Virus record (IMG/VR): IMGVR_UViG_3300025120_000532
Coordinates: 1-24,243 of that record
Source: a virus
Length of the DNA stretch: 24,243 nucleotides
Direction: 5' to 3' (one strand)
This document shows positions 1-24,243 of the stretch, piece after piece. The notes below the pieces were generated by a model. It did no database searches. It worked only from the letters and a program-made list of their open reading frames with translations, and was not told the origin of the DNA. A program made the translations under genes and the position numbers. Numbering within the stretch: the stretch's first letter is position 1; every line of letters starts with the position of its first letter.

Positions 1-60
1 ATCAATATTCAGGACGGATCTATTAAAGAAATAGAAGATGAATCTGATAAGAAAGATTAG
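1..60 (+). CDS. C-terminal end of an unknown gene (5' partial)
   Basis: Frame 1 is open from the first base and ends at a TAG at 58-60, giving 19 residues that finish in a charged run (KEIEDESDKKD). The upstream part lies outside the window, so no function can be given. It would overlap the next gene by 23 bases, in keeping with the overlapping, operon-like packing seen throughout. An open frame of 19 codons could occur by chance; the main support is the gene density of the window. Confidence 0.4.
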   Translation: MNIQDGSIKEIEDESDKKD

Positions 61-840: not shown

Positions 841-1069
841 AGCAGTTGAAGAATTAATAAAAGTAGCTAAAGAAGCTATTGTAGATTCTGACGATGATAT
901 ATCCGCAGACAGGCTTAAAAATGCAGCTGCTACAAAAAAGCTAGCTATATTTGATGCGTTTGAAATACTTAATAGAATACAAGAAGAAGAGGACATGCTA
1001 AATAATAAACCTAAGGAAGTAGTTGAAGAAGTTGCTTTTGGTGGTTTTGCAGAAAATAGATCTAAGTAA
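794..1069 (+). CDS. Small helical protein, probable small terminase subunit
   Basis: From the ATG at 794 this is 91 residues, almost entirely predicted helix, with an amphipathic stretch (AAATKKLAIFDAFEILNRIQ) and an acidic segment before a VAFGGFAE tail. An upstream in-frame ATG at 707 would add 29 residues unlike the rest and deepen the overlap with the co-chaperonin gene to 134 bases; the 794 start cuts this to 47 and is preferred. Its stop overlaps the large-terminase start (TAATG, 1067-1071). A small, helical, oligomer-type protein immediately before the large terminase is the usual place and shape for the small terminase, which recognises phage DNA for packaging. I see no clear helix-turn-helix, so the call rests on position and composition. 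Confidence 0.5.
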   Translation: MNIKETKKSIIQAGHKAVEELIKVAKEAIVDSDDDISADRLKNAAATKKLAIFDAFEILNRIQEEEDMLNNKPKEVVEEVAFGGFAENRSK

Positions 1070-3288: not shown

Positions 3289-3289
3289 T

Positions 3290-5719: not shown

Positions 5720-5727
5720 ACATTAAT

Positions 5728-5754
5728 TTTTTAATTATATTATATTATGGAAAA
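5728..5754 (+). repeat. A/T-only leader repeat, copy 1 (scaffold gene start)
   Basis: A 27-base sequence, a T-run then TAATTATATTATATT and ATGGAAAA, that spans the start codon at 5747. It is repeated exactly at 8525-8551 across the start codon at 8544. It includes the first five coding bases after each ATG, so both proteins begin MEN/MEK-like. It probably acts in translation initiation or as part of a late promoter; the sequence cannot decide which. Confidence 0.7.
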
Positions 5755-6994: not shown

Positions 6995-7015
6995 CTAACT
7001 TAAAAATTAAAAATT

Positions 7016-8473: not shown

Positions 8474-8484
8474 TATTACTTTTT

Positions 8485-8516
8485 AAAAGAACCGGGGCTT
8501 CGGCCTCGGTACTTTT
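8485..8516 (+). terminator. Rho-independent terminator with UUCG tetraloop
   Basis: The arms 8485-8498 and 8503-8516 pair over 14 positions with one A-A mismatch and one G-T wobble, closed by C-G around a TTCG loop (8499-8502). The lower stem is AAAAG/CTTTT and T-rich DNA follows. It lies 11 bases after the capsid stop. A T-run also precedes the left arm, so it could work in both directions. It likely isolates or trims the capsid transcript. Confidence 0.88.
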
Positions 8517-8524
8517 ATTTTAAC

Positions 8525-8551
8525 TTTTTAATTATATTATATTATGGAAAA
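8525..8551 (+). repeat. A/T-only leader repeat, copy 2
   Basis: Exact 27-base copy of 5728-5754, here across the start codon at 8544 and beginning nine bases after the terminator. The two copies bracket the scaffold plus capsid unit. Because transcription is probably reduced by the terminator, this copy may mark a restart of expression, as a promoter, or simply a strong translation start. Confidence 0.7.
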
Positions 8552-9308
8552 TAAAAAAACATCTCCTAAATGGGAGGTAAAAGACAGAACTTACGTTCTA
8601 AAAGGAAAAGACACGCCAATAGTATCTAAACTACCATCAAGACACACTCAAAGAAAACCTTTATTATGGTTAGATCCAGACAAAGGTTATCAAAGAGAGT
8701 TAAGGTATGCAACAAACCAAAGATCACCAATTGTTGATGAACAAACTGGAGTTGTAACACTTGGTCATATAGTTTTTAGAAACGGCGCGTTAGTTGTAAA
8801 GAAAGAATTACAATCATTACAAAAATTACTTTCTTTATATCACCCTATGAAAGATTTGCTTTATACAGAAAAAGATGAAGTAAGAAGAGCTGAAATAGAC
8901 TTAGACTTTATTGAGTTAGAAGTTGAAGCTTTAAACATAGCTGTATCACTGGATATAGAAATGGCAGAATCAATACTAAGAGTAGAACAAGGTAGTAAAG
9001 TGTCTAAGATGACTTCTAAGGAAGTTAAAAGAGACGTGGTACTATTTGCTAAAACTAACCCTGTATACTTCTTAGAGCTATGTAATGACGATTCAATAGA
9101 ATTAAGAAACTTTGGTGTCAAAGCAGTTGAAGCTGGAATACTACAACTATCAGCAGACCAAAGAGTATTTACAGCTGGTAAAGAAAAACGTAAACTATTT
9201 ACTGTTCCTTTCGACGAGCACCCTTACTCAGCATTAGCTGCGTGGTTTAAGACAGATGAAGGTATGGATGTTTATAAAGCAATGACAAAAAAAGTAAAAA
9301 CTAAATAA
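8544..9308 (+). CDS. Capsid-adjacent phage protein of unknown function
   Basis: A 254-residue soluble protein between the major capsid and neck-ring genes. Residues 1-75 are basic and beta-leaning (RSPIVDEQTGVVTLGHIVF at about 60-78). The middle is strongly helical and charged (RAEIDLDFIELEVEALNIA), then comes a helical KMTSKEVKRDVVLFAKTNP segment, and the C-terminus is lysine-rich. No signal peptide, membrane helix or catalytic motif is visible. Similar proteins occur near capsid genes in other phages as I recall, without a function I can name. A virion or head-completion role is suggested by place alone. It starts in the second leader repeat and ends just before a hairpin. Confidence 0.75.
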   Translation: MENKKTSPKWEVKDRTYVLKGKDTPIVSKLPSRHTQRKPLLWLDPDKGYQRELRYATNQRSPIVDEQTGVVTLGHIVFRNGALVVKKELQSLQKLLSLYHPMKDLLYTEKDEVRRAEIDLDFIELEVEALNIAVSLDIEMAESILRVEQGSKVSKMTSKEVKRDVVLFAKTNPVYFLELCNDDSIELRNFGVKAVEAGILQLSADQRVFTAGKEKRKLFTVPFDEHPYSALAAWFKTDEGMDVYKAMTKKVKTK

Positions 9309-9313
9309 TCAAT

Positions 9314-9354
9314 TTGTAGATGCAGTCGCTCTACGGGGCGATTGCAAACTACAA
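9314..9354 (+). other. Stem-loop without T-run, upstream of a neck gene
   Basis: Outer arms 9314-9319 (TTGTAG) and 9349-9354 (CTACAA) pair fully. Inside them 9321-9329 (TGCAGTCGC) pairs with 9338-9346 (GCGATTGCA) with one G-T wobble, around an eight-base loop, separated by an A/AA internal bulge. No T-tract follows, so it is a poor intrinsic terminator. It ends 12 bases before the next ATG and could block processing or tune translation. Confidence 0.6.
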
Positions 9355-9366
9355 CAATAAAAAATT

Positions 9367-10080
9367 ATGGCGGTAAATATAGACACAGTATATCAAAGAG
9401 TATTAGCTGCGGCAAATAAAGAACAAAGAGGTTATGTAACACCACAAGAGTTTAACTTATTTGCTAATCAAGCTCAGATGGATATATTTGAGCAATACTT
9501 TTATGACATAAACCAATTTGGTAAAATGCCAGGTAACGATACAACGTATTCAGATATGTTAGATTTGTTACAAGAAAAAGTAGACGTGTTTGAAAGGTAT
9601 AGACAAACAGTGACTATGTCTGGTTCAAACGGTACTTTACCCACTCATTACAGAATGGGTGAACTATATTTTTTAAAGCTTGGTACTTATTATGAAATTG
9701 AAAAAATCAAGCAAAATGAAATACATCATTTAATTAACTCACCTTTAACAACACCAACCTTTTCTAGGCCAATGTATGTTAGATCACAAAGTACAGCTAA
9801 TGGAGATAACAATATAATTGTTTATCCAAGTAGTATAACCGAAGGCGTAGTGTGTAACTATATAGCTAGACCTGTAACAGCTGTTTGGGGTTATACAGTA
9901 GTTAATAATCAAGCCTTATATAATAGTACAACCTCAACAAACTTCCAATTACATCAGTCTGAAGAATCAGAATTAGTTATGAAAATATTAGAATTAGCTG
10001 GTATCTCATTAAAAGATCCTATGCTAACTCAGTTTGCAAGCCAAGAAGAAGCACAGAACATACAACAAGAAAACAAATAA
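9367..10080 (+). CDS. Neck/tail ring protein 1 (crAss-like)
   Basis: A 237-residue protein in the head-to-tail connector position. The N-terminal helical segment (EFNLFANQAQMDIFEQYFYD, 28-47) and the beta-strand-rich middle (LPTHYRMGELYFLKLGTYYE) are typical of ring proteins of crAss-like podoviruses, which extend the portal into the short tail, much as T7 gp11 does. The C-terminus is helical and Gln-rich. It begins just after the stem-loop at 9314-9354 and is followed three bases later by a second ring protein. Assignment to a specific ring (R1 to R4) is not possible from sequence alone. Confidence 0.72.
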   Translation: MAVNIDTVYQRVLAAANKEQRGYVTPQEFNLFANQAQMDIFEQYFYDINQFGKMPGNDTTYSDMLDLLQEKVDVFERYRQTVTMSGSNGTLPTHYRMGELYFLKLGTYYEIEKIKQNEIHHLINSPLTTPTFSRPMYVRSQSTANGDNNIIVYPSSITEGVVCNYIARPVTAVWGYTVVNNQALYNSTTSTNFQLHQSEESELVMKILELAGISLKDPMLTQFASQEEAQNIQQENK

Positions 10081-10083
10081 ACT

Positions 10084-10989
10084 ATGCCACTATTTAACGG
10101 AACACAACAGAATTATTACGAGGGAGCCGATGGCAGTTTTAACACTGCTGATGATTTAGCTGTTTATGGTAACTATCAATTTATAACGCTTCAAGATATA
10201 ATAAACAACTTTATAATATCTTACGTTGGTCAAGACAAGTTAATACCAAAAATAAAAAGAGCTGACATAGCTTTTCACGCTCAAAGATCAATACAGGAAT
10301 TAACTTATGACACGTTTAAATCTACTAAGTCTCAAGAAATAGAATTACCACCAAGTTTACTAATGGTTTTACCTCATGATTATGTTAACTACGTTAAGCT
10401 AACATGGAAAGATAACTCTGGTATAGAGCATGTTATATATCCCGCTATAAAAACAAGTAACCCACAACAGATAACTCAAGCTGGAAACTTAGACTACACT
10501 TTTGATAGTAGTGGTAATTTAGTTGACCCATTAGTGTCTGATACATGGACACAGTTTCAAAATGTAGCTAATGCTAACAACGCAGATAATGATGACGGAG
10601 ATTTAGAAAATGTTTATGTTGAAGGTAGAAGATACGGTTTAACACCTGAAAATGCTCAAAGCAACGGTGTATTTTATATAGACCCAAGATTTGGTCGTAT
10701 ACATTTTAGCTCAGACTTAGCTGGTAAAACAATAACATTGAAATATATAAGTGACGGTTTAGGAACTGACGCTGAGATGATTGTGCATAAGTTTGCTGAA
10801 GAGGCAATGTACAAATCAATAGCTTATGCTGTTCTGTCAACTAGATCAAACGTACAAGAATACGTAGTAGCAAGATACAAGAAAGAAAGAAAAGCTGCTA
10901 TAAGAACTGCTAAACTAAGACTATCAAATATAAAATTAGAGGAGATTACTCAGATAATGAGAAACAAATCTAAACAAATAAAACACTAG
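10084..10989 (+). CDS. Neck/tail ring protein 2 (crAss-like)
   Basis: A 301-residue protein. Residues 31-79 (including YQFITLQDIINNFIISYVGQ and IPKIKRADIAFHAQRSIQEL) form the helical start I recognise from crAss-like connector proteins. There follow strands with PPSLLMVLPHDYVNYVKLTW and, near the end, a helical basic stretch (ARYKKERKAAIRTAKLRLSN) that may face DNA or a neighbouring ring. It would sit below the portal with its upstream neighbour. It is separated from that neighbour by three bases and from the giant tail protein by three bases, so all three are likely co-translated parts of one tail complex. Confidence 0.75.
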   Translation: MPLFNGTQQNYYEGADGSFNTADDLAVYGNYQFITLQDIINNFIISYVGQDKLIPKIKRADIAFHAQRSIQELTYDTFKSTKSQEIELPPSLLMVLPHDYVNYVKLTWKDNSGIEHVIYPAIKTSNPQQITQAGNLDYTFDSSGNLVDPLVSDTWTQFQNVANANNADNDDGDLENVYVEGRRYGLTPENAQSNGVFYIDPRFGRIHFSSDLAGKTITLKYISDGLGTDAEMIVHKFAEEAMYKSIAYAVLSTRSNVQEYVVARYKKERKAAIRTAKLRLSNIKLEEITQIMRNKSKQIKH

Positions 10990-10992
10990 AGT

Positions 10993-13900
10993 ATGCCGGA
11001 AATTAAAAATCATTTTCGAGCTGGGAAAATTAACAAAGACCTAGACGAAAGATTAATTCAGAAAGGTGAATACAGAGATGCTTTAAATTTAGAGATAGCT
11101 TCATCACAAGGTGATGATGTTGGATCTTTACAAACTGTCGCTGGTAATAGGATCATTGCTGATCTTAACATACCTGGTGCTGAGTGTATTGGTTCTTATG
11201 TAGATCACATCAATGACAAGGTATACTGGTTTGTTACTGGAACGCTTATTGATGCTATTATTGAGTATGATCCTAAACAAAACACTATACTACCAGTACT
11301 TGTTGACGCCCCAGCTACAGAGGCCGATGCAATACTAAACTTTAGTACATCTTTTTATATTTGTGGTATCAACACAATAGATGGACTACTCTTCTGGACA
11401 GACGGCCAAACAGAACCTAAAATGATTAATATATCTAGGTTTAAATCAGGTAGCGTCAATTACTCAACAACAACAACTCTATACAACATTGATGGTATAT
11501 CTGGAAACTTTAGTCTAGAAGACGTAACAGTTATAAAGAAAAACCCTGTGACAGCACCTACAATTACTTTTAGTAATACAAAAAGAGATGGTGTGGTTGA
11601 GGGTATTTTTACAGCTATGGGTGGTCCAATAGTGAATAATAGTTTTACTACAACAGACAGTTTTGGTGATATAGTTCCTGTTGAAACAACTATAGCTCCT
11701 TTTAATATAACAATACTAGGATCTCAAGTTATGGACTGGAGAGTTGGTGATCAATTAAAAGCAACAGCAACTGGTACTGGTAACGCTGGGCTAACAGCTG
11801 AAGAGGTTAGACTAAGGGTTGTTCAAACTTACAGCACATCACCAATGGTGTTCAAAGTAAGTATAGATGCTATATCAGAAGAAATAGAACAAGGACAACA
11901 AAATTGGAATATAGTTTTAGTAGAAGATAAACCTATGTTTGAGTTTAAATTCCCTAGGTTTGCATACAGATGGAAATTAAAAGATGGTCAATACTCAGCT
12001 ATTGGTCCTTATTCCGAGGTTGCTTTTTCGCCTGATGAGTTTGATTATCAAGCTAAAAAAGGTTACAACTTAGGTATGACAAACAATATAAGATCTTTAA
12101 AAATATCTGATTTTGTTACGGCTGACATACCTAAAGACTGTGTTGAAATAGATATTTTATATAAAGAAAGCAACAATACTAATGTATACACGGTTAAAAG
12201 TATAAAATCAGAATATGGTGATGTTGATCCAGAGTATACAGCAGACGAACTAGAAATAACATCGGAAATAATACACGCTGTTATACCGGCTAATCAATCA
12301 CTTAGACCTTGGGACAACGTTCCTGTTGCGGCAAGAGCTCAAGAGATAACAGGTAATAGATTAGTTTACGGTAACTATCAATCTGGTTATGACATGAAAG
12401 ATTCTAACTACCAAAATGTTAGCGTTAAGTTTGAGGTTGTTATTGGTGGAAGCACAGCTGTAACACCAAGATTCCCAGGTAAATCTATAAAAACATTAAG
12501 AACTTATCAAGTAGGTATTGTTTATAGAGATGCTTTTGGTAGAGAAACACCTGTATTTACAGACGCAAACACTGGTTCTGTTATTTTAGACAAGTCACAA
12601 GCTGCTTTATACAATAACATTAAAATAAAAGTTATCAGTCCACCACCCGCGTGGGCAACTTCATATAAATATTTTATTAAAGAAACATCTAACGAGTATT
12701 ATAATGTTGCTATGGATAGACATTATGAAGCTGAAGATGGTAACGCTTGGATATCGTTTCCTTCCTCTGAAAGAAACAAAGTTCATGAGGATAGGTTTTT
12801 AATACTTAAAAAAGGTCACAATGATGACGCTGCTATTGTTGATGAGGCTAGGTATAAAGTTTTAGCAGTTTCAAACGATGTCCCTGATTATATAAGAATA
12901 CAAGATGTTAGCCAAGGTGTTTTACCTTCTAGAACTGATAATGGTCAACTATTCTTAGCAATAGGTTATCCTTCGTCAAATACAGGTCATTTTTCTATTG
13001 ACTCTACAGAGTGGGAAGCTAGGTTTGGTTCTGCAGATCCAACCTATAATAACACAAATGTTCAACAAATGGCTCTTCATACCCAGTCAAATCTTGTATG
13101 TAGAATATTTAGCGGAACAAGAGAAACAGATAAGTATGATGTTGCTAACATTTCTTTTTTAGGTAGTGGAACATCTGGTAATTACGCCGGTGGTCAAAGC
13201 GCTGGTACTAGTGGAGCATATAAAATAGAAATAAAAGGAATTTTTAAAGAAGCAGATGCCGATTGGCTTGGTAGCGTTACTGAAAGTACAACATTACAAG
13301 GTTTAAGTGTAGAGTTTTATCAAAAGCAAACAGTAAGAAAACCAGAATATCAAGGTAGGTTTTTTGCTAAACTAAACAAAGATTCAATATTAGAGTCTGC
13401 AATACTATCTAAAGCTAACGAAGAGAATTATAAAATTATACAAAGTCTTGAGCTTTGGCAACACCACGATACGTCGAAAGATATGGATTGGTGGAGAAAT
13501 ACATCTAAAGGAAACAACACTGAACAAGGTGGTTGGTATATAGATAGAACAAAAGTAGATAAAAACAAAGACGCTGGTGGTACTGGAACAATGAGAAAAA
13601 ACTGGGCTAACAATGGGTCCGCAAATACTACTGGTGTTGGTTGGAGAGCTGGTGAAAATAAAGTTGAAATTGCTTATCACTGGTGGAAAGGTAACGATAG
13701 AAATGCATGGCAAAAAAGATGGAACGATTTTGAAACAACTGAACGACCTCAATTTGCACCTATAGTTAAAGCTTTCCAAACACCAGGCGCTTTACTTAGA
13801 TTAACAGATGATCCTAACGCAACTGTTTATACGATAAAAAGGTGGAGAAGAAATCACTGTGTTGCTTATGATAGAAATGCTATAGCGACAGGTAAGTTTG

Positions 13901-15438
13901 GTAGTATGAGAGTTATTAGGTGGACATTAGATCTTGATCAACCAGTTGGTTGGGCACCTGAAGATGAAAATAGCACTATTAACGGTACTAATTTTGCTGA
14001 GTTTGGTGATAAAGGTTCTACAGGTAGAAAGTCTCTAGCTATAAAAACTCCTTTAGAAATACTAGAACAATTCAGCGACGATGAGTTGGATGCTGAAAGA
14101 AGTAAAAACCCAGCTATATTTGAGACAGAACCCTTAGAAGATATTGGGCTTGATCTTTATAACGAGGCTAGTAATGCATACACGGTATCAAGTAGTCACG
14201 GTAGCCAACAAACACTAGGTTGGTTTAACTGTTACTCTTTTGGTAACGGAGTTGAATCAAACAGAATAAGAGATGATTTCAATGCTGTTATGATAGATAA
14301 AGGGCCTAAAGTTTCTACAGTATTAGCAGAACCTTATGCTAGAGAGTATAAGACTAATGGGTTAATATTTTCAGGTTTATACAACTCTAACTCAAGCGTG
14401 AATCAACTTAACCAGTTTATAATGGCAGAAGCTATAACAAAAGACATTGATCCAAGTTATGGTAGTATACAAAAGCTTCACGCAAGAGACACTAACTTAA
14501 TAACATTATGTCAAGATAAGTGTATAAGAATACTATGTGATAAAGATGCTTTATTTAATGCCGATGGAAGCGCTAACCTTGTAGCTTCTAATAGGTTTCT
14601 AGGTCAATCAACTCCTTATGTTGGTGAATTTGGTATATCTTCAAACCCAGAGTCTTTTGCTGCTTACGGATATCAAGCATACTTTACAGACAAATCAAGA
14701 GGAGCTGTTATTAGATTATCAAGAGATGGTATAACACCTATATCTGATCATGGCACTGTTGATTACTTTTCTGACAAACTAAACACTGCTAGCTCAGACA
14801 AAATAATAGGATCTTATGATGAAAATAGAAAGTTATATAACTTAACTATAAAAGATAGTAGTCAAGTTAGTGATCTTCACAGAGATTTTGGTGATACAAC
14901 TATATCATTTAGTGAGAAAGTTACGGGTTGGACATCGAGAAAATCTTTTATACCAGAATCAGGTGCTTCACTTAACAACACGTATTACACTTTTAAAGGT
15001 GGGGATATGTACGAGCATGGTGTTGTTACTTATGGTGTAGACTTAATGTCTACTTTTTATGGTACTTTTACAGAACCAATGATTAAGTTTATATTTAACG
15101 ATCAACCAGCCTCGGTGAAAACTTTTAGAACATTAAACTATGAAGGTACTCAAGCTTATTGGAAAGCAACTTTAAATGATAATGAATACTATAATAATCA
15201 ATCTCTTCAAGGTTGGTACAACAAAAGCATAACAACAGATTTACAAGAAGGTGTTGTTACTGAGTTTAAAGACAAAGAAAACAAATGGTTTAACTTCATA
15301 GAAGGAGTATCAACAACAGGTGTTAAATCAATAGACACAAATGAATTTGCAGTGCAAGGTATAGGTCAAGGGACTGTAACAAGCGATACTGGTGGGTTCA
15401 CAGAAATTACATTAACAATAACAGAAAACGCAGATTAG
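10993..15438 (+). CDS. Giant tail 'muzzle'/stabilisation-type protein
   Basis: A 1481-residue soluble structural protein. The N-terminal segment (GKINKDLDERLIQKGEYRDA, 11-30, continuing to GSLQTVAGN) is a hallmark I associate with the large tail 'muzzle' or 'stabilisation' proteins of crAss-like phages. The middle is beta-rich, with many short strands and an acidic character. A second well-ordered block lies at about 1122-1290 (FSGLYNSNSSVNQLNQF, SIQKLHARDTNLITLC, YFTDKSRGAVIRLSRDG), reminiscent of propeller blades that repeat D/N-rich turns. It probably forms the lower tail through which DNA and internal proteins exit. It directly precedes the fibre-like gene with no intervening base. No enzymatic motif was seen. 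Confidence 0.85.
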   Translation: MPEIKNHFRAGKINKDLDERLIQKGEYRDALNLEIASSQGDDVGSLQTVAGNRIIADLNIPGAECIGSYVDHINDKVYWFVTGTLIDAIIEYDPKQNTILPVLVDAPATEADAILNFSTSFYICGINTIDGLLFWTDGQTEPKMINISRFKSGSVNYSTTTTLYNIDGISGNFSLEDVTVIKKNPVTAPTITFSNTKRDGVVEGIFTAMGGPIVNNSFTTTDSFGDIVPVETTIAPFNITILGSQVMDWRVGDQLKATATGTGNAGLTAEEVRLRVVQTYSTSPMVFKVSIDAISEEIEQGQQNWNIVLVEDKPMFEFKFPRFAYRWKLKDGQYSAIGPYSEVAFSPDEFDYQAKKGYNLGMTNNIRSLKISDFVTADIPKDCVEIDILYKESNNTNVYTVKSIKSEYGDVDPEYTADELEITSEIIHAVIPANQSLRPWDNVPVAARAQEITGNRLVYGNYQSGYDMKDSNYQNVSVKFEVVIGGSTAVTPRFPGKSIKTLRTYQVGIVYRDAFGRETPVFTDANTGSVILDKSQAALYNNIKIKVISPPPAWATSYKYFIKETSNEYYNVAMDRHYEAEDGNAWISFPSSERNKVHEDRFLILKKGHNDDAAIVDEARYKVLAVSNDVPDYIRIQDVSQGVLPSRTDNGQLFLAIGYPSSNTGHFSIDSTEWEARFGSADPTYNNTNVQQMALHTQSNLVCRIFSGTRETDKYDVANISFLGSGTSGNYAGGQSAGTSGAYKIEIKGIFKEADADWLGSVTESTTLQGLSVEFYQKQTVRKPEYQGRFFAKLNKDSILESAILSKANEENYKIIQSLELWQHHDTSKDMDWWRNTSKGNNTEQGGWYIDRTKVDKNKDAGGTGTMRKNWANNGSANTTGVGWRAGENKVEIAYHWWKGNDRNAWQKRWNDFETTERPQFAPIVKAFQTPGALLRLTDDPNATVYTIKRWRRNHCVAYDRNAIATGKFGSMRVIRWTLDLDQPVGWAPEDENSTINGTNFAEFGDKGSTGRKSLAIKTPLEILEQFSDDELDAERSKNPAIFETEPLEDIGLDLYNEASNAYTVSSSHGSQQTLGWFNCYSFGNGVESNRIRDDFNAVMIDKGPKVSTVLAEPYAREYKTNGLIFSGLYNSNSSVNQLNQFIMAEAITKDIDPSYGSIQKLHARDTNLITLCQDKCIRILCDKDALFNADGSANLVASNRFLGQSTPYVGEFGISSNPESFAAYGYQAYFTDKSRGAVIRLSRDGITPISDHGTVDYFSDKLNTASSDKIIGSYDENRKLYNLTIKDSSQVSDLHRDFGDTTISFSEKVTGWTSRKSFIPESGASLNNTYYTFKGGDMYEHGVVTYGVDLMSTFYGTFTEPMIKFIFNDQPASVKTFRTLNYEGTQAYWKATLNDNEYYNNQSLQGWYNKSITTDLQEGVVTEFKDKENKWFNFIEGVSTTGVKSIDTNEFAVQGIGQGTVTSDTGGFTEITLTITENAD

Positions 15439-17577
15439 ATGGCATTATTTGATTGTACAATATCAACAGAGACAGTAGTAGCAACTGCTGGGACAACAAA
15501 CTTAGCAACACAGACTTTGGTTATAACACCAAACGCTGGTCACGTTGTTTCTGCCGCTGCCTTCACTAATAACACGGCTGCTAATAATAATATAAATTCT
15601 ATAACACTTTCTGATACTACCACAGCAAACGCTGTTGGTAACAAAGTAAATGTTGTTGTTGATCTTAAGAATGGTTTTGCAATGCCTACTAGTAACACAA
15701 CTATTACTATAGACATAGATGGTAGAGCTATACTTTTTAGTGAAAAACTAAGAAGCGTAGCTGGTACATGGGACTCAAACACGGCTTCTAATGTAACACC
15801 AACTGGTAGTAGTGGTAATGCTTACTCGGCAACTGGTCACACTGGGGCTTCAACAGCTTTATTTACAAGAGTTTTTACTTGTGCATCTGGTAAGTTTTTT
15901 ACAACAGCACCAGCTATAGTTATAACTACTGGTAATGCTTCTGACTATATTATAACAACTACACCTTCGTTTACCACGGTACAAGGTGTAGCATACCACA
16001 CTAGCACTATGTTTGTTGTTGGGTATACTTTTCCTGGTGGTAACGCTAGTGGTGATAACATAGACTTTAATATATCAGCCGCGGAAACAATACCAGTACA
16101 ATCAAACATTATATCATCATATGATATTAGCACAAACGCTGTACCAAAGTACGGTGAAAGTAGAGTTTTAAGAGTTTACGGTACTGTTGGGGCTACGTTT
16201 AATTGTACCGTAACAAATGAAGATACGCATTATTATAATTTTATTACTTTTGCTTTTCAAAGCGGAACAACAAATGGTTCTCAAACAATTGGCTTAGCTG
16301 GTTACAAAGATATACTTATATCATTTCCATCTGTAACAGACGACGATACTTATACTATTACTTTTACACCAACAGGAACAACTACTTTAGGTTTAACTCA
16401 AACACATCCAATAGTAATACAGCAATTATCCCAAAGAACAATTACATATTCAACAGTATCTTTGGCTACTGGAGCAAGATCTTATACAGCTTTACCATCG
16501 AGTACGGTTAGTTACGCTACGGGCGAAGTTACACCATCCAAACAACATAGGTTTGTTACGTTAACTATAACAGATGACGTTCCTTTTAGGTTAATGAACA
16601 CTGTAAATTTAGCTATGCACTCACCAGGAACTGGTGATCCACTTTATGCTGAAACAAATATAGGTGATAATAACACTACAGAGTCTGATGTAGTTTTTTC
16701 AAAACTATCAACAAGCCCATCATATTCGTATCAAATGACACCTATAAACTCTGTAGATTTTATAATAGATGCTTACGACTATTGGCAAGGAACAACTAGT
16801 TCTACAGTAGCTTTTAACGTAGATCAGTTTATAAACTCACCACCCACAGCCACCCCACCTGGAACAACTAGTATACCTAATAACACAGCAACAACAATAC
16901 AGTTAGCTGGTACTGATCCAAACGGAGGTAGTTTAGTTTATACTAAAGTAACAAACCCTACTAAAGGTGCTGTTTCAATAGTATCTGGTACTGGATTAGC
17001 TACGTACACACCATTAGGTTCTAGTAGCTCTGGAGCTGATAGTTTTACTTACAAAGTAACTGATGGTCATGGTGCTGATAGCCCAGCTGCAACTGTTAAC
17101 GTTACTATAGCTTCATCAGGAAGTGGTAGCAATCCTACATCTTCTAGCGTGTGGAAATACAACGACTCAACACAAAATAGCACATTCTATACTTTGTCCA
17201 GCCCAAACATTGGTACAGTAACACACAGTGGTTTAACAACAGGGTCTAATCAAATACAAGTTTCTTTTGTAAACTGGGGGATTAGCCAGACGATAGTACC
17301 TAGCTATGTTGATCACGTTGGTGACGCTAGAGTTAGTGGTGGTGGTGCTGCAACTATAAGATACATATTAAAATATAATGGCGCAGCTCTAACTGCAGTT
17401 ACAGCAAGTGTTGTTGAGAATTCTTCAAACTCTGTTAACAACGAAAACTGGAACATCAAGTCCTCTACTTCAACAAGTCTTAATATTCCTGCTAACCATA
17501 ATAGTGGTAATGGTCTTATATCAGGTGCAAATTATACTATAGAACACGAAGTACGATGGGAAAATATATTGCAATAA
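15439..17577 (+). CDS. Fibre-like tail protein with cadherin/Ig-like domain
   Basis: A 712-residue protein very rich in Thr, Ser, Asn, Gly and Ala and almost free of helix, as in fibrous or adhesin-type tail proteins. Residues 466-560 form a recognisable cadherin-like/Big-type module. It opens NSPPTATPPG, has LAGTDPNGGSLVYTKV, then the PTKGAVSIVSGTGLATYTP hairpin, then GADSFTYKVTDGHGADSPAA and a closing VNVTIASS strand. Such modules bind surfaces or act as spacers and often need calcium; the DPNGG and TDGHG turns are consistent with that. The C-terminal 150 residues look like a further beta domain. The start is the ATG directly after the muzzle stop. A host-contact role is inferred. Confidence 0.7.
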   Translation: MALFDCTISTETVVATAGTTNLATQTLVITPNAGHVVSAAAFTNNTAANNNINSITLSDTTTANAVGNKVNVVVDLKNGFAMPTSNTTITIDIDGRAILFSEKLRSVAGTWDSNTASNVTPTGSSGNAYSATGHTGASTALFTRVFTCASGKFFTTAPAIVITTGNASDYIITTTPSFTTVQGVAYHTSTMFVVGYTFPGGNASGDNIDFNISAAETIPVQSNIISSYDISTNAVPKYGESRVLRVYGTVGATFNCTVTNEDTHYYNFITFAFQSGTTNGSQTIGLAGYKDILISFPSVTDDDTYTITFTPTGTTTLGLTQTHPIVIQQLSQRTITYSTVSLATGARSYTALPSSTVSYATGEVTPSKQHRFVTLTITDDVPFRLMNTVNLAMHSPGTGDPLYAETNIGDNNTTESDVVFSKLSTSPSYSYQMTPINSVDFIIDAYDYWQGTTSSTVAFNVDQFINSPPTATPPGTTSIPNNTATTIQLAGTDPNGGSLVYTKVTNPTKGAVSIVSGTGLATYTPLGSSSSGADSFTYKVTDGHGADSPAATVNVTIASSGSGSNPTSSSVWKYNDSTQNSTFYTLSSPNIGTVTHSGLTTGSNQIQVSFVNWGISQTIVPSYVDHVGDARVSGGGAATIRYILKYNGAALTAVTASVVENSSNSVNNENWNIKSSTSTSLNIPANHNSGNGLISGANYTIEHEVRWENILQ

Positions 17578-17587
17578 AAAATAAGAT

Positions 17588-17956
17588 ATGGCACAAATAA
17601 CAATAACATTTACATCACCAATAAACATATCAGCTCAAAAAGATGACATTGCCTACTATACAGGGCAATCATCTCTAGGTGGTTTTCAACATGACGATGC
17701 TGTTACTAATGGTACTGGTTTAATAAAGATGGGTGCTATAATATCTATAGCTGCTGATAGGTTGTCTTTTGTTTGTGATATATCAAACTCTACACCTAGA
17801 CCTACAAGTAGTAGTTTTATTTGTTTTGTTAAAGATACTAGAATTAACCTATCTGGTTTAACAGGTTATTTTGCAGAAGTTGAGTTTAGAAACACATCTA
17901 ATAGACCTAGCGAGATGTTTGCAGTCGGTAGCGAGATCACTGGAAGTAGTAAATAA
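17588..17956 (+). CDS. Small beta-rich structural protein, function unknown
   Basis: A 122-residue protein that starts with a beta strand (AQITITFTSPINIS), continues through short strands and Gly/Ser turns, and ends in YFAEVEFRNTSNRPSEMFAV (94-113) then GSEITGSSK. No helix, membrane segment or catalytic motif is evident. Two cysteines (C63 and C79) lie in adjacent strands. It sits ten bases after the fibre-like gene and before the cupin-like gene, so a tail-tip, fibre-accessory or decoration role is plausible. I do not recognise the family. The 39 bases after it are A/T-rich with no hairpin. Confidence 0.65.
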   Translation: MAQITITFTSPINISAQKDDIAYYTGQSSLGGFQHDDAVTNGTGLIKMGAIISIAADRLSFVCDISNSTPRPTSSSFICFVKDTRINLSGLTGYFAEVEFRNTSNRPSEMFAVGSEITGSSK

Positions 17957-17995
17957 TACTAAAAAAGTGTAACTATATATCTATAATTAAATCAA

Positions 17996-18592
17996 ATGAG
18001 TATAGATAAAATAAACAAACAAGTGGAAGAAGCTCCACTAACTAAAGAAGAGTCTAAAGCACAGTTTGTAGCTATGACAGAAGAACTAGGTATTAAACAT
18101 AGTTTTAATTTTGAAGAAGCTTGGGAGATAGGAGAGGAGATAAGACAAAGAAAAGCCTTTAGAGAATCTATTGTGGACTTTGAAACAACTGTAAGAGATA
18201 AAGGTGGTTGGTTGTCAGAAAAAGAAACACATGAGTTAAACCCAGTGAAACATAGTTTTGCAGACGGTTGTTATATAAGGGAAATATTTAACCCTGCTGG
18301 TGAATTGTTAGTAACAAAGATACATAAAAAGAAACATCCGTTTTTTTTAATGAAAGGAAAAATGTCTATACTAACAGAAAACGGTGTGCAACACTTAGAA
18401 GGTCCACATCATGGTATAACAGAACCAGGAACAAAAAGAATAATATATACACATACAGATTGTGTGTTTATAACTGTTCACGCTACAGATAGTACAGATG
18501 TAGAAGAAATAGAAAAAGAAGTAATCGCTGAGAACTTTGAAGATCCTTTGATTACAAGTAATGATATAAATAAATTAAAACAAAATATATGA
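17996..18592 (+). CDS. Cupin-like protein
   Basis: A 198-residue protein. The first 80 residues are helical and charged. Residues 86-162 read as a cupin barrel: GELLVTKIHKKKHPFFLMKG (102-121) resembles cupin motif 1 with H110 and H114. ITEPGTKRIIYTHTDCVFIT (141-160) plus V161-H162 resembles motif 2, with P-x-G and the later His. The usual motif-1 glutamate is not at its expected place, so metal binding may be altered or lost. Cupins include metal enzymes and purely structural barrels; the reaction, if any, cannot be told. Its stop overlaps the next start by four bases (ATGA, 18589-18592), tying it to the internal-protein cluster. Confidence 0.6.
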   Translation: MSIDKINKQVEEAPLTKEESKAQFVAMTEELGIKHSFNFEEAWEIGEEIRQRKAFRESIVDFETTVRDKGGWLSEKETHELNPVKHSFADGCYIREIFNPAGELLVTKIHKKKHPFFLMKGKMSILTENGVQHLEGPHHGITEPGTKRIIYTHTDCVFITVHATDSTDVEEIEKEVIAENFEDPLITSNDINKLKQNI

Positions 18593-19209
18593 GTTTTTTA
18601 ACAGCAGCAGCTATAGTTGGAGGAGTAAGCGCGGGAACATCTATCGCTTCTGGTCTTATAGGTCGTAAGAAAAGAAAAGAAGCACAACGTGCCGCGCAAA
18701 ATGATTTTCAAAGAAACAAAACAGCTTATGAAAACCTTGACACATCGAACGTGTATAGCAACATGGAAAACACTATGGAAGATCTTACGGTTAATACACA
18801 GCAAGCTGATATGCAAAACCAACAAAACAGTCAGAACTTATCAAACATTATGGGTGGTATGAATTCTGCAGCTGGTGGATCTGGTGTTGCTGGTTTAGCT
18901 CAAGCTATGGCACAACAGCAATCAGCTAACAACCAACAAGCGTCTGCTTCTATTGGTCAGCAAGAATCTCAAAACCAAATGAGATCTGCAAACATGCAAG
19001 CACAGTTAAATAACTTTGAAGCACAAGGTGAGTTACAATCAAGAAGAGCTGAAAAAGACAAAGTAGAAACCATGTACGGACAATCACAAAATACACTTAA
19101 AGACGCTAATGAAGCTATAGCACAATCTAACAAGGCTATTGTTGGTGGTGTTGGTCAGTTAGGTGGTGTATTTATGAATGACGCCGGTGCAGTAGCATCA
19201 CAAGGATAA
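18589..19209 (+). CDS. Probable internal virion protein with hydrophobic N-terminus
   Basis: A 206-residue protein. Residues 3-25 are an Ala/Gly/Ile-rich hydrophobic segment (FLTAAAIVGGVSAGTSIASG) followed by a basic RKKRK cluster at 26-30, which could insert into or cross a membrane. Residues about 60-150 are a Gln/Asn/Ala/Ser-rich helix (AMAQQQSANNQQASAS), and the C-terminus is again Gly/Ala-rich. This composition, with placement before two larger charged proteins, resembles the smallest of the podovirus ejection proteins (the T7 gp14 position). These leave the capsid with DNA and form a channel through the envelope. This is an analogy of layout and composition; no homology was tested. Confidence 0.6.
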   Translation: MSFLTAAAIVGGVSAGTSIASGLIGRKKRKEAQRAAQNDFQRNKTAYENLDTSNVYSNMENTMEDLTVNTQQADMQNQQNSQNLSNIMGGMNSAAGGSGVAGLAQAMAQQQSANNQQASASIGQQESQNQMRSANMQAQLNNFEAQGELQSRRAEKDKVETMYGQSQNTLKDANEAIAQSNKAIVGGVGQLGGVFMNDAGAVASQG

Positions 19210-19222
19210 ATAACAAATAACT

Positions 19223-20440
19223 ATGGCATTATACACAGGACGCGAAAGATACGCAAACGACAATAGAAGAACACAACAACGAGCTGACAACAACAGACGT
19301 AACGTTGATAATAGACTTCAAGCAATGTTTCTTGAGAAAAAGAAAACAATGCGAGACAACAAAACTAAGATGGAGAAATTCATCAACGCTATGCCAGAAG
19401 GTTTTGATGCTCAGATATTACCAGAAAAATATAAGCCAGGTTTAGATAAGTTTTTAAAAGAAGGTAAAAGAAAATATGCTGACGCAGCTATGCAGATAGG
19501 TAATTATGAGGTTGGCAGTGATGATTATTTATTTTTCAAAGAACAAATGGACAACGTTAGCAACGCTTTTAAATCTGCAAAAGCTCAAGTTGATTTGTTT
19601 GGTGGTAACAAAAAAGATTTAGGTATTGATTTATCTAGCGGTAACTTTTCAAAAGGTAATAACACTGGTGAAATGGGTTTGCTGACTGACGTCTACACTG
19701 ATCAATATGATATGATGTTTAATGAAAATGGTACATTAGCTTTTAAAGACGGTGATGGTAATATCACTCAGTTCAGCGATCTACCTGATTACTTTAACAA
19801 AGATTATAAGACTGGAGATGCAATACAGAAGATGGCAGCTGATATATATAAATCAGGCCAACCTTTTAATCCAGCTACAAAAATGATGCATAGAAACAAA
19901 CTGCAATCTATGGTAGAGCAAGGTGGTATAGAAACATTATACTCTTTGGCTAATGATGATTTTTTTAACATGAATGGTTTAGGTATACCTGATGAGGTTT
20001 TGAAAAACCCAGAAAGAAGAGATGAAGTTGAAGACATGGTTATAGACCAGTATTTAAATGTTTTAGAACAACAAGCCGCTTCAGGATCCGTATACAATAA
20101 AAAGAAAAAAGGCAGCGGTAGTGGTAGTGGTAGTGAAAACACAGGAGCGCCTAGCTTTGCTGGTTGGATGCAGAAAAATGAATCAAACCCTCAGCTAACT
20201 GTTTCTGAGTGGCAAAATAATGTGTTTGCTGGTACTGATTTGCAAATAGTTGAGTTAGGCGAAGGTTCTTATGGAATATTTGATATTGCTAAAAACAAAG
20301 GATACGCTAGCACATCTTCTGGTAAATCAAGAGATCAACTAATGGAACTTATGAACTTTGAATGGACTGGTTCAGATTTAACAATGCCTGCAATGGAAGG
20401 TATCGTAAAAAGACTTTATAGTAACGGAAAACTTAAATAA
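19223..20440 (+). CDS. Probable internal virion protein, charged and helical
   Basis: A 405-residue soluble protein. The first 60 residues are a very basic, Asn/Arg-rich helix (RRTQQRADNNRRNVDNRLQA), then mixed helices. Residues 297-304 are a perfect (Gly-Ser)4 linker after KKKK. The C-terminal part from about 315 (FAGWMQKNESNPQLTVSEW) looks like a separate small domain. It is the second of three adjacent proteins that I interpret as internal or ejected virion proteins, analogous in place to T7 gp15. No catalytic motif is visible, and no hydrophobic segment is long enough to span a membrane. It begins 13 bases after its upstream neighbour and ends six bases before the next start. Confidence 0.55.
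   Translation: MALYTGRERYANDNRRTQQRADNNRRNVDNRLQAMFLEKKKTMRDNKTKMEKFINAMPEGFDAQILPEKYKPGLDKFLKEGKRKYADAAMQIGNYEVGSDDYLFFKEQMDNVSNAFKSAKAQVDLFGGNKKDLGIDLSSGNFSKGNNTGEMGLLTDVYTDQYDMMFNENGTLAFKDGDGNITQFSDLPDYFNKDYKTGDAIQKMAADIYKSGQPFNPATKMMHRNKLQSMVEQGGIETLYSLANDDFFNMNGLGIPDEVLKNPERRDEVEDMVIDQYLNVLEQQAASGSVYNKKKKGSGSGSGSENTGAPSFAGWMQKNESNPQLTVSEWQNNVFAGTDLQIVELGEGSYGIFDIAKNKGYASTSSGKSRDQLMELMNFEWTGSDLTMPAMEGIVKRLYSNGKLK
20111..20134 (+). repeat. Four-copy hexamer repeat encoding a Gly-Ser linker
   Basis: GGCAGC followed by three copies of GGTAGT in frame encodes (Gly-Ser)4 between a lysine cluster and the C-terminal domain of the 405-residue protein. It is a natural flexible linker and could change copy number by slippage. 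Confidence 0.85.
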
Positions 20441-20446
20441 TATAAT

Positions 20447-23400
20447 ATGGGCGATGCTAAATTCAATACAAGTCAATATGGCGGTAGAAGTGGTGGTACT
20501 ACCAAAGAACATAGAGAGTTAGAGGCTGAGTTAGAAAGAAAAAGGCAGGCTGAAATTGCTAGAATAGAATCAGAAAGAGTTAACTCGGAGGAGTACAAAG
20601 CTCAAATGCCAGAAGCTACAGCTCAAATAGAAAACTATTTTGAAGATAAGTACGAAGTGTTGAACTCTTTAGGTTTTGAACCTACAGAAGAAAACTACGA
20701 GGAACTTGGTGATAGTTCTATAGACTGGGAAAATTTATTAGATGGTTATAATGATCCAGATAAAGGTGACGCTGATGGCTATAAGAAAATGGCTAAAAGT
20801 ATTAAAACCGCTTATGGTGAAAGCTCTTGGTATGGTGGTTGGAAAGCAAATGATAAATTTAACAAAATTAAAGAGACAGAATTAGATTCTTTAATAAAAA
20901 AAGGTCTTGAAGCTAAAGTTGTAGAGCAGCAAAGAGTAAAAGCTGACAACAACAAAACTAGATTCGAAGAAGAAAGAAAATTAAGAAATCTAGATGAATC
21001 AGCTGTTGTAGCTATTTATGAAAACTACGATTACGAAGCTTCTAATATAGATGAAAAATCTATAATTGACGATGTTAGAGAGCTTAAGAAACTTCAAAAA
21101 GAAACAAAGCCACAAGATAGAACGTTAGAGCAAAACAAAAGAATGTTAGAGCTTTATGATGAAATAGAAACTAAGAACAAGGATTTAGGAAACAGTACTT
21201 TATATGATTACGAGGGTAATAGTATAGAGAAGATAACTAAAAAACCATCAGAAGGTGGTTTTGAGTTTGATGAAGAGCAAATGAAAGAGTATGAGAAATA
21301 TGTAAAAAACTCTGACTATGTTGCCCCAACTTATTCTGATCACGTAGATTCTGTTTATCACGTAAAATTAAAAGAGTTAGCTTTAAACGATTATGATGGC
21401 GAGCAAATATCTAAACCATTTATAGTAAACGATCCTGAAGCTTGGGATATACTAAAAGAATATAAAACAGGTACAAACAAACATGGAAATATCTATGAGG
21501 GTGTGCCTGTTTCTGTTTTAAGTAAATACTATAATAGAGTTATAGCGACAGACGGTGACGACTCAGGTGGAGCTTCTATAGTGTCAGGTGAAGAGTCAGC
21601 GGCATCTAAAGCAGGTTTTAAAGAAACTGGAGCTGAAAACTTTTTAACAAACAATAAGTTTGACTCACCACTTGGACATGTAGGTCTATTAGAGAATTAT
21701 GAAAAACAAAAGTTTGGTTTTTTAGAAAATAAGTTTTTTGACGAAGATGAGTTTGCAGACAAAGACTTATCTAGAAACTGGAAGCTAGGTATAAGAAATC
21801 ATAGAGACGACAGAAAACAAATACTACAAGAGAAAGAAGTTTTAAAACGAATGTCTTTAATGAACGTTGATAAAACAATGGGTACTGGTAACTTTGCTAA
21901 CAACACTGGTTTTTGGGACACAGTAAAGCAAGGTGGAGATATGATTGCTCAAGGCTTTAAAGGTGACTTAGCTCAATGGACTGGTGCTGACAAGTTGTTT
22001 GAAAAACTTGATGAAGGTGATTATATGAAGGTTAAAGATCACGACTTGTGGACTGAAAGAAAATATAAAGATGTAGCAGAAAGTCTAGATATGACTTATG
22101 GTAATTTAGTTTCTGATGAAGCTAAAGAAAACAGAATGAAAAGAAGCATAGGTTATAGAGCATGGGAAGGTTTTACTGGTTTTGTACCAGCTTTAGCAGA
22201 GTTTGCGTTAATAGATGTAGCGGCTAAGAAAACAGGTATTATAACAGGTATACCTAGGCTAGCAAATAGAACTGCCGCTGCTTTTAGAAAAAGCGGTGTT
22301 ATTACCGGTTATGGCCAAAACATTAGAAATACAACAAACTTCCTAGGACATGCTTTTTATGAGGAACTTAAAATGTATACAGCTTTTGATGAGCACTACC
22401 ATATGGGTGGTGGGGTTGCTTTTTATGGTATAGGTAAAGCATTACCTTTTCTTAAATCATCTAGCCCAGCTTTAAACGCTATAATAAACAACCCTGTAAA
22501 AGGTGGTATTGCTGGTATGGCTTCTGTTCAAACAGCACAAAACTTAGAGGCTGTTATCGCTGACGTGAGAGGTAACAAAACCTTCATGACACACATTAAC
22601 GAAACTTACTATAACGAAGATGGTGAGTTTAAGTTTACTGAAACAACAGATCAAATGCTTGTTGACTTCTTAGTGTTTGGAGCTTTAGGTATAAGAGGTA
22701 TGCAAAAACAAGCTGGTAACCTTCAAAGAGGTTATAACGGTTTAGGTAAACCTTTAGCGTCACTTGGTATTGCACCTGTTCAAAGTAGAATGTTTAGAGG
22801 TAAGGTTTGGTGGAAAGGTATAGAGTCAGTACATAGAGAGTCCTCGATGATAGTAAACAGAATACAAGAAAGAATAGATTACCTTACTCCTTTTAACACA
22901 AAGGGTAAAGAAAAAGGAATTCACACTAAAGAGATAGAAAGATTAAACAAAGAGCTGTTAAAGTGGTATGATCTTAAAAACAATTCTTTTGGCCAGCTTA
23001 AAACAGCTTACATGTACGAAGACTGGCAAGATGATAAAAAGGCTACGGAAATCATAAACCGTCAGTTTCAAGGTATAAAATCAGTTATTGATCCTACTGG
23101 AAAGCTAGAGTTTGTTGCTAGTAAAAAAGCTCCAGACTGGGTTACAGCCGAGGGTAAAGACGCTGCTGCAGAAATAAATGCAGAAAGAAATAAAATATGG
23201 ATTAACACTACTATAGCAGAACCAGGTAAAATGCCTCATGAAATTGTTCATTATGGTTTAAAAGCTATGATGAAAAGAAACCCTGATGTAGCGAATCAAC
23301 TTAGAGCTGAGCTTTCTAAAGTTTTTGATAAGAAAAAAATATTTGACGTAAAATCTGGTAACGAGCTTTTTATACAGGATATGGTTGACTCATATAGGTT

Positions 23401-24243
23401 TACTCCAGGTCGAGTAAAAGAACTAACAGATAAAGGTTTAGATGCTAGAGAAATTAGGGAGAAAGAAAAAGAACTAATGAATGAAGAGTACGTTACTTAT
23501 GTATTCGAAGCTTTGGCAAACCCTCTTAATTATAGCAGATTTGTTAGCTCAAACAAGTTTAAAGACCTTGGAACATGGAGTGAAGGGTTTATGAAAAAAA
23601 CAGGTATAGATTATAGAGTTAACACAAAAGAAGATCTTGTTAACTTTTTCTACGCTTTGTCTAAAGGTATGACAACGGGTAAGTTGAATAAAAAACAATG
23701 GGAGTTGTTTCAAAACGTTGATAAGCAAAATTGGTTAAAAGAACCAATTGGAGCTGACATGAGAACTGCTGAGTCAAAGTCAGAGGCTTTTGCTTTTGAA
23801 GCTAGTAACTCAAAAGACTTAGGTGTATTACAAGAAAAGTCAAATGAAATGCAGAAGCGATACAATGATCTTACAAAAGATTTAGGTGGAAAAGAAGCTG
23901 CTATAAAAGAAATGTTAAAGCCAGACCCTAAAAACCCAACAACATCTGTATCAAAAGATTTTGATGCTATTGTTTATAATGTTATAAAAAGATATAACGA
24001 TAGTAGGGTTGCTAAAGGCCTAGAAGATCAACAAGTGTTAGACCCTGTAGATAAATACATGCTAGCTACAGAGTTAGTATATGATTTGAGTAGAGGCAAA
24101 AACAGAGGTTTAGAAGCTATAATAAAAACTTACGATCCTGCGAAATACGGTAAAACAGAAGCTGAAATGCCTTTGTCTAAACATGTAATGCAACAGCTTG
24201 CTAAGCGTGTATATGAGATTAAAGAAGGTAGTATGGATGCTGG
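20447..24243 (+). CDS. Giant virion protein with HExxH zinc-metalloprotease domain (3' partial)
   Basis: Open from the ATG at 20447 to the end of the window, at least 1265 codons. The N-terminal 200 residues are charged and helical (ELEAELERKRQAEIARIESE). Weakly hydrophobic Gly/Ala-rich segments lie at about 575-606, 653-669 and 737-752 (MLVDFLVFGALGIRGM), as in ejection proteins that contact membranes. At 917-940 the pattern KIWINTTIAEPGKMPHEIVH followed by YGL gives a beta strand, then the helix with H931-E932-x-x-H935, a zincin active-site motif. NEEYVTYVFEALANP (1012-1026), some 80 residues on, offers glutamates 1013, 1014 and 1021 as the third zinc ligand. Third of three adjacent probable internal proteins. 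It may be a large multi-domain 'polyvalent' protein delivered with the DNA; targets are unknown. No RNA-polymerase DFDID-type motif appears in the visible part. Confidence 0.75.
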   Translation, partial: MGDAKFNTSQYGGRSGGTTKEHRELEAELERKRQAEIARIESERVNSEEYKAQMPEATAQIENYFEDKYEVLNSLGFEPTEENYEELGDSSIDWENLLDGYNDPDKGDADGYKKMAKSIKTAYGESSWYGGWKANDKFNKIKETELDSLIKKGLEAKVVEQQRVKADNNKTRFEEERKLRNLDESAVVAIYENYDYEASNIDEKSIIDDVRELKKLQKETKPQDRTLEQNKRMLELYDEIETKNKDLGNSTLYDYEGNSIEKITKKPSEGGFEFDEEQMKEYEKYVKNSDYVAPTYSDHVDSVYHVKLKELALNDYDGEQISKPFIVNDPEAWDILKEYKTGTNKHGNIYEGVPVSVLSKYYNRVIATDGDDSGGASIVSGEESAASKAGFKETGAENFLTNNKFDSPLGHVGLLENYEKQKFGFLENKFFDEDEFADKDLSRNWKLGIRNHRDDRKQILQEKEVLKRMSLMNVDKTMGTGNFANNTGFWDTVKQGGDMIAQGFKGDLAQWTGADKLFEKLDEGDYMKVKDHDLWTERKYKDVAESLDMTYGNLVSDEAKENRMKRSIGYRAWEGFTGFVPALAEFALIDVAAKKTGIITGIPRLANRTAAAFRKSGVITGYGQNIRNTTNFLGHAFYEELKMYTAFDEHYHMGGGVAFYGIGKALPFLKSSSPALNAIINNPVKGGIAGMASVQTAQNLEAVIADVRGNKTFMTHINETYYNEDGEFKFTETTDQMLVDFLVFGALGIRGMQKQAGNLQRGYNGLGKPLASLGIAPVQSRMFRGKVWWKGIESVHRESSMIVNRIQERIDYLTPFNTKGKEKGIHTKEIERLNKELLKWYDLKNNSFGQLKTAYMYEDWQDDKKATEIINRQFQGIKSVIDPTGKLEFVASKKAPDWVTAEGKDAAAEINAERNKIWINTTIAEPGKMPHEIVHYGLKAMMKRNPDVANQLRAELSKVFDKKKIFDVKSGNELFIQDMVDSYRFTPGRVKELTDKGLDAREIREKEKELMNEEYVTYVFEALANPLNYSRFVSSNKFKDLGTWSEGFMKKTGIDYRVNTKEDLVNFFYALSKGMTTGKLNKKQWELFQNVDKQNWLKEPIGADMRTAESKSEAFAFEASNSKDLGVLQEKSNEMQKRYNDLTKDLGGKEAAIKEMLKPDPKNPTTSVSKDFDAIVYNVIKRYNDSRVAKGLEDQQVLDPVDKYMLATELVYDLSRGKNRGLEAIIKTYDPAKYGKTEAEMPLSKHVMQQLAKRVYEIKEGSMDA

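Follow-up and report, generated by a model that had tools for sequence, protein, structure and literature searches.

What does a peptidase-like motif do inside a giant protein that a phage appears to inject into its host? The question is raised by IMG/VR virus record IMGVR_UViG_3300025120_000532, a virus fragment of 24,243 bases which we analysed over its whole length (hereafter the window), and whose last open reading frame contains an HExxH motif. Conservation and a predicted structure indicate that this motif very probably belongs to a genuine zincin fold, which is likely to be active as a peptidase, and gene order, together with the labels on corresponding giants, makes it highly probable that the giant is an ejected virion protein. 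Our best overall explanation is more tentative, namely that a zincin of the kind found in the virion RNA polymerase (vRNAP) of phage N4 would perform limited proteolysis in the ejection machine after delivery.

The giant gene and its conserved residues

The features that bear directly on the zincin are the following.

20447-24243, plus strand: giant virion/ejection protein gene, 5' part (1,265 codons; open frame, with ten complete relatives)
23009-23626, plus strand: zincin-like metallopeptidase domain, residues about 855-1060 (alignment, AlphaFold model, weak profile match to the N4 vRNAP zincin)
23237-23251, plus strand: HEIVH motif, residues 931-935, with H931, E932 and H935 (sequence)
23486-23488, plus strand: E1014, likeliest candidate for the third zinc ligand (Glu in all 16 rows; stands opposite the invariant Glu of the N4-type zincins)
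23507-23509, plus strand: E1021, second invariant Glu (16 of 16 rows), in the same predicted helix as E1014 (model helix 181-205)

A preliminary description, made from the letters of the window, had reported a frame of at least 1265 codons, and the frame is indeed open for 1,265 codons (20447-24241) before it runs off the contig end. Three protein-based scans of viral contigs gave 17 relatives (designated here by L numbers), from which L006, 99.8% identical to L008, was removed to leave 16; L006 was left out of all alignments except that of the whole giants, and L020 and L024, which are cut short, were left out of alignment A5. In ten IMG/VR relatives the frame is complete, at 2,915-3,187 residues, and the window therefore covers about the first 43% of what would be a giant of about 2,900 residues. 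Two loci have irregular frames, L058 (contig IMGVR_UViG_3300047157_000063) and L002 (position 13007), with a terminase large subunit (TerL) gene split over several frames and a giant that ends early (1,725 codons) near the contig end; these are possibly sequence errors.

The motif lies where the preliminary description had placed it, at 23237-23251, and reads HEIVH. By itself this proves little, because some HExxH arose in 86 of 5,000 shuffles of the window protein (about 2% by chance), and it is conservation that removes chance. In an alignment of the window with the 16 loci (17 rows), E932 and H935 are kept throughout and H931 is His in 16 rows, the exception being L027, which has Gln; thus the conservation of these three residues, which the preliminary description had set as one point on which its zincin could fall, holds with that single exception. 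The contig of L027 ends before the Glu sites, leaving 16 rows there. The Glu cluster described at 23483-23509 is correctly located (the codons of E1013, E1014 and E1021 start at 23483, 23486 and 23507), and E1014 and E1021 are Glu in all 16 rows; E1013 is Glu in only five, which rules it out as the third ligand. All 15 relatives that cover the four sites keep the two His and the two Glu, and the three candidate ligands and the general base are retained down to 22.5% overall identity to the window (L026), with codons at the active-site positions varying synonymously among relatives. Between the two invariant Glu residues we consider E1014 most likely to be the third ligand, because it stands opposite the invariant Glu of the N4-type zincins in the profile alignment given below, with E1021 as the alternative. 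Mean pairwise identity in the zincin block is 37% (121 pairs), compared with 22% in the preceding linker and 31% in the following stretch; it is higher elsewhere in the giant, reaching 43% in a hydrophobic block, 57% in a HAD region and 48% in the C-terminal part.

Predicted fold and comparison with N4-type zincins

From 17 aligned sequences of the zincin region AlphaFold produced a model with a mean pLDDT of 72.3 and a pTM of 0.62, in which residues 11-200 have pLDDT values of 77-93 in 10-residue blocks and the last 58 residues fall below 50. Its elements follow the order N-terminal helices, three strands, the HExxH helix (112-125), two short strands, and helix 181-205 carrying E1014 and E1021, an order that agrees with the zincin core described in PMC5512222. 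The strand-then-helix setting of the motif that had been read from the sequence is reproduced, since strand 97-101 of the model precedes the helix that carries HEIVH. Among predicted viral structures two unnamed viral proteins match the model at E 1.8e-4 and 5.8e-4, and the named matches, all at E 0.05 or more, include a "Large polyvalent protein-associated" entry, an elemoC "Structural protein", crAss-like contigs and IrrE-like proteins.

The ejected N4 vRNAP, gp50 (3,500 residues), carries a conserved HExxH in its C1 domain (PMC12633501), and this HExxH domain has been assigned to the zincins (PMC5512222). When 11 Schitoviridae domains were aligned, the HExxH was invariant, as was the Glu of NEFMA[WY] (AEFIAW in one row). 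A profile-profile comparison of the window family with these 11 N4-type zincins aligned the two in register with a score of 29.6 (E about 0.004), compared with a maximum of 21.2 for 60 column-shuffled controls, 16.3 for a reversed profile and 14.1-19.0 for three unrelated profiles. Like N4 gp50 (C1 domain residues 2124-2375), the window protein is a giant, presumably ejected podovirus protein whose gene lies beside that of a smaller probable ejection partner and which has an HExxH followed by a later Glu. In N4 gp50 the zincin is followed by a long, mostly helical C-terminal region; the order in the window family is an N-terminal hydrophobic part, the zincin, a middle part, a HAD part and a C-terminal part, with no RNA polymerase recognised. 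PDB 9sfn chain G, an "Internal virion protein" of 1,337 residues, also matches the N4-type zincin profile (420-563, E 3.1e-7) and like those zincins has an intact HEAVH followed by KELVAW; unlike the window giant it is a different, shorter protein, matched to the N4-type profile only.

Several results weigh against the zincin assignment. No family of Pfam (at E 0.1) or of PHROG (at E 0.01) matches the window protein. Foldseek with the zincin model found nothing in the PDB at E 0.001 (best 0.21), and a sequence search of solved structures with the zincin region gave no significant match, although families absent from such match lists may still be related. In a VIA comparison the ten best matches were lethal factor or Certhrax (best Z 5.2, a value that the tool's own note calls common), and the best of them covers lethal factor residues 48-261, outside the catalytic range, which itself reaches only Z 3.1 (rmsd 7.8). 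The hhalign probability of the N4 match is only 8%, and a single N4 sequence did not match the zincin-region profile, the match appearing only with the 11-domain alignment. The window and N4 have nearly the same His-to-Glu spacing (83 and 82), but this agreement is weak evidence, as the spacing varies among the window's relatives. Finally, in L027 (9176-12667) the HExxH reads QEIGH, so that the first zinc ligand is lost, and the contig ends before the second Glu.

Among the first 17 Foldseek matches in the PDB, eight are selecase, PprI, MATCAP or lethal factor, which we take to be zincins, all at E 0.5 or more; most of the best 50 are unrelated proteins. When the 17 sequences of the zincin region were scanned with Pfam, the sole zincin name to appear was DUF3267, "putative zincin peptidase", in one member at chance level (E 0.23). 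The zincin identity proposed in the preliminary description nevertheless has support from conservation and from the predicted order of fold elements, to which the alignment with the N4 zincins adds weaker support. It is very improbable that the HExxH arose by chance in a helical protein that has no zincin domain: some shuffles do contain such a motif and the matches to solved structures are weak, but five spaced residues are conserved, the predicted elements fall in zincin order and the N4 profile matches in register, so that conservation largely refutes it.

The rest of the giant

22139-22741, plus strand: conserved hydrophobic, predicted helical block, residues about 565-765 (invariant columns, hydropathy, low-confidence helical model)

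The preliminary description had noted hydrophobic Gly/Ala segments, in the plural. A Kyte-Doolittle plot has one peak at the cut-off used, at residues 575-593 within this block. The block also contains AFDEHYHMGGG (22382-22414), among the best conserved stretches of the giant. A model of the N-terminal part is all helical, with a mean pLDDT of 58.6, too poor for structure searching.

The window itself stops before the HAD part, which is known from relatives only. All 13 relatives that reach that part have the HAD motifs DFD[DE]T, LTAR and DDA, and in the corresponding alignment (A4) DxDxT, the Thr of LTAR, a Lys and DD are invariant in 13 of 13 rows. Pfam DUF2608, which we take to be a HAD-clan family, is matched at E 0.1 or better in 11 of the 13 (best 1.1e-5), L029 being below the curated cut-off, and the full-length relative P0002 matches the PHROG polynucleotide kinase family phrog_415 (6.1e-4). 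A PDB profile search with the HAD region returned no HAD structure, only thioredoxin-type resA chains (E 0.023). On these motifs and matches, the HAD part may be a phosphatase acting on nucleic-acid ends or nucleotides. The giants scanned have no polymerase family among their Pfam and PHROG matches (distant ones can be missed), no lytic transglycosylase domain such as that of T7 gp16 among their Pfam matches, and no match to a Pfam large-polyvalent-protein associated domain (LPD).

Virion context and corresponding giants of isolates

1069-3288, plus strand: TerL (phrog_6681, 5.9e-164)
3290-5719, plus strand: portal protein (phrog_6547, 2.5e-157)
10993-15438, plus strand: muzzle-like tail protein, 1,481 residues (Pfam crAss_MUZ_C, 3.7e-9; phrog_14478, 1.7e-149)
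19223-20440, plus strand: 405-residue gene upstream of the giant, probable ejection partner (gene order)
256-840: GroES-like protein, shortly before the terminase (phrog_13932, 1e-16)
15439-17577: 712-residue protein with a bacterial Ig / cadherin-like domain, between the muzzle and fibre genes (Big_9, 7.4e-12)

The gene order of the window is GroES-like, TerL, portal, a 415-residue gene, a virion structural protein and smaller structural genes, then the muzzle-like gene, Ig-domain and fibre genes, the 405-residue gene and, last, the giant. This order resembles that of Flavobacteriia podoviruses, and TerL and portal, the portal-terminase packaging module, share the window with the giant. In Flavobacteriia phages the last, giant gene is labelled structural in the depositors' annotations (elemo gp18, phi19:3 gp129, phi38:1 gp101 by similarity, and Calle gp001); Gundel gp074, whose gene precedes TerL, carries the same label. 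The place of the window giant, last in the block of virion genes, and these labels on the corresponding giants make packaging and ejection, as already suggested in the preliminary description, probable.

How widely the HExxH occurs was examined in five corresponding giants. There is one in elemo gp18 (3,694 residues), one in Gundel gp074 (2,483 residues) and two in the giant of the metagenome-derived MW202828 (3,859 residues), and none in phi19:3 gp129 or in Calle gp001, the latter searched in two pieces. Because two of the five are without the motif, the zincin domain is dispensable in the wider phage group, a point against the explanation preferred below. The HExxH stretch of the elemo giant aligns in register to the window family profile (E 3.4e-4, probability 38%). 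Unlike the window giant in other respects, the elemo and MW202828 giants have no reliable similarity to it outside this aligned stretch of elemo, and the Gundel giant, which was compared with it in part only, differs in position. A profile comparison of the zincin region with MW202828 as a single sequence gave no match, and profile comparisons of the N- and C-terminal parts of the giant with elemo, MW202828 or N4 found nothing. A tblastn search with the window protein and with P0002 found no near relative among named phages, and the 58 pattern matches in bacterial genomes included no relative.

Some further observations concern the neighbourhood. The TerL of MW202828 (L009) is 63% identical to that of the window, and its giant (741-12320), with the two HExxH motifs, is not detectably related as a whole. 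GroES/GroEL genes are also present in elemo, phi38:1 and MW202828. The crAss_MUZ_C muzzle domain occurs here in a phage whose TerL relatives infect Flavobacteriia, and a 122-residue frame at 17588-17956 matches the end (163-237) of phrog_18548, the start of which (4-100) is matched by the muzzle-like protein. After the giant of L029 come a 398-residue gene without matches and small genes that include a lipoprotein match (1.6e-8) and a chance-level holin match (0.041), which we did not use.

Abrupt loss of identity within the probable ejection genes

20108: end of 99.6-99.7% identity with contig IMGVR_UViG_3300025138_000100 and start of a divergent cassette, or a contig join (nucleotide comparison)

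The window and this contig (L004) are 99.66% identical over 1-18210 and 99.69% over 10796-20108, and beyond 20108 the window has no nucleotide match above 150 bits to the contig. The two TerL proteins are 99.9% identical and the two giants 32.7%. The break (window 20108; L004 7313) falls in an A-rich lysine linker of the 405-residue protein; by eye, the last ~110 residues of that protein in the window resemble L029 and L002, as does the window giant, and the C-terminus of the L004 partner resembles L003, matching the behaviour of the L004 giant. In a second pair, L015 and L029, identity is 95.7% along the first 10 kb of the L015 contig and 91% as far as L015 9274, which again lies within the partner gene. 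Their giants are 44.9% identical, with one patch of 68.8% over the conserved block, and DNA similarity resumes at 77.6% from about residue 2139 (L015 about 16042), at the HAD region. Over 136 pairs with more than 300 aligned TerL residues, TerL and giant identities are weakly correlated (Spearman 0.26), the pairs not being independent. L005 and L002 looked like another case, as TerL and giant seemed incongruent, but no sharp DNA break was found and the case was dropped.

These comparisons make it a reasonable, still uncertain proposition that the ejection machine is an exchangeable cassette, in which the partner C-terminus and much of the giant, the membrane block and the zincin included, are replaced as a unit between phages otherwise 91-99.7% identical, with the catalytic residues staying fixed within the exchanged part. 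Such exchange would be comparable to the replacement of tail-fibre tips in other phages. For the window, the break at 20108 may instead be a contig join, since no other viral contig searched contains the window's junction; that of L004 occurs in its own contig only. This exchange, the one point here that may surprise a specialist, still has to be proved from reads.

What the zincin may act on

The preliminary description implied that a zincin in such a protein would be new, which is not the case: giant ejected phage proteins with zincins have been described (PMC5512222), and the HExxH of N4 vRNAP is also reported in PMC12633501. The window giant is like the phage polyvalent proteins of PMC5512222 in being large and multidomain, in lying in the same gene neighbourhood as portal and terminase, in having its zincin in the middle and, in relatives, in having a second, unrelated enzyme domain in the same chain. 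It differs from them in that this partner is a HAD domain; the terms "HAD superfamily", "phosphatase" and "haloacid" are absent from the main text of that paper (bare "had" occurs three times). The muzzle-like protein recalls the Crassvirales, which store large cargo proteins in capsid and tail (PMC10172136); there, by contrast, the three largest cargo proteins are associated with RNA polymerase, and "protease" does not occur in the main text of that source. In the open-licence literature searched we found nothing that joins a crAss-like phage with a zincin, the papers on crAss-like phages and metalloproteases being off subject by title.

In the explanation that we tentatively prefer, the giant, as part of a short-tailed phage of the kind that infects Flavobacteriia, would be packaged and would leave through the tail together with the DNA or ahead of it, as gene order and labels suggest. 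Its hydrophobic helical block would probably meet the inner membrane and the 405-residue partner, in an arrangement like that of T7 gp16 with gp15 or N4 gp50 with gp51/gp52. H931 and H935 would bind zinc together with, most likely, E1014, and E932 would act as the general base, as conservation and predicted fold order suggest. After delivery the zincin may cut the giant itself or its partners, which would either free the C-terminal half (the HAD phosphatase and the conserved further part of the relatives) into the cytoplasm or dismantle the channel. We favour proteolysis within the ejection machine because such zincins have been suggested to process their own polypeptides, processing being the proposed likely role of zincins in giant ejected phage proteins (PMC5512222), and because the active site has been retained although the sequence around it changes. 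On the other side, N4 vRNAP is packaged unprocessed (PMC5512222), and the string "proteoly" does not occur in the main text of the N4 vRNAP preprint (PMC12633501), which weighs against simple self-cleavage there. In the literature consulted no substrate is shown for such zincins except for a proposed self-cleavage of P1 DdrB. That ejection proteins are the main target is possible rather than established; that host proteins are is more doubtful, if nearly as likely. For an opening of the envelope or an attack on host defence, both proposed in the preliminary description, the analysis found evidence neither for nor against.

One may also consider that the zincin is an effector, cutting a host defence, transcription or envelope-stress factor after ejection, and that the giant diverges as hosts and their defences differ. 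The zincin does sit in the N-terminal two thirds of the giant; these diverge further than the HAD and C-terminal regions do, and it is they that are replaced between near-identical phages. Host targets are also one option for such domains in PMC5512222. Yet an active site that stays fixed in an otherwise changing domain fits self-targets equally, and no host target or defence link was found, so that on balance we regard this as rather unlikely. Less likely again is a domain that has lost its peptidase function and survives because its fold helps the giant to be packed, unfolded and then refolded in the channel. The Gln at H931 in L027 would suit such a role, as would N4 vRNAP, where the HExxH domain lies within a C-terminal region that inhibits the polymerase and, as far as we could see in PMC12633501, no protease activity is reported; a scaffold, however, would not need both His and both Glu, which all 15 fully covered relatives keep. 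It is quite improbable that the zincin acts while the virion is being assembled, cutting head or ejection proteins in place of a prohead protease. The window proteins scanned included no recognisable separate head protease, and processing before packaging is known for P1 DdrB (PMC5512222), but N4 vRNAP is packaged uncut (same source), and the window is part of a genome, so that a protease may be encoded elsewhere.

Implications

Zincins recur in giant ejected phage proteins. Since HExxH-bearing giants occur in culturable phages, elemo on Flavobacterium and Gundel on Tenacibaculum, the choice between machine and host as target is testable there. If the cassette exchange is real, adaptation to the host would extend beyond receptor binding to the crossing of the envelope and the early-effector step, a zincin-HAD giant taking the part that a virion RNA polymerase plays elsewhere, and near-identical natural phage pairs that differ mainly in their ejection proteins would allow a clean comparison of the effect of those proteins.

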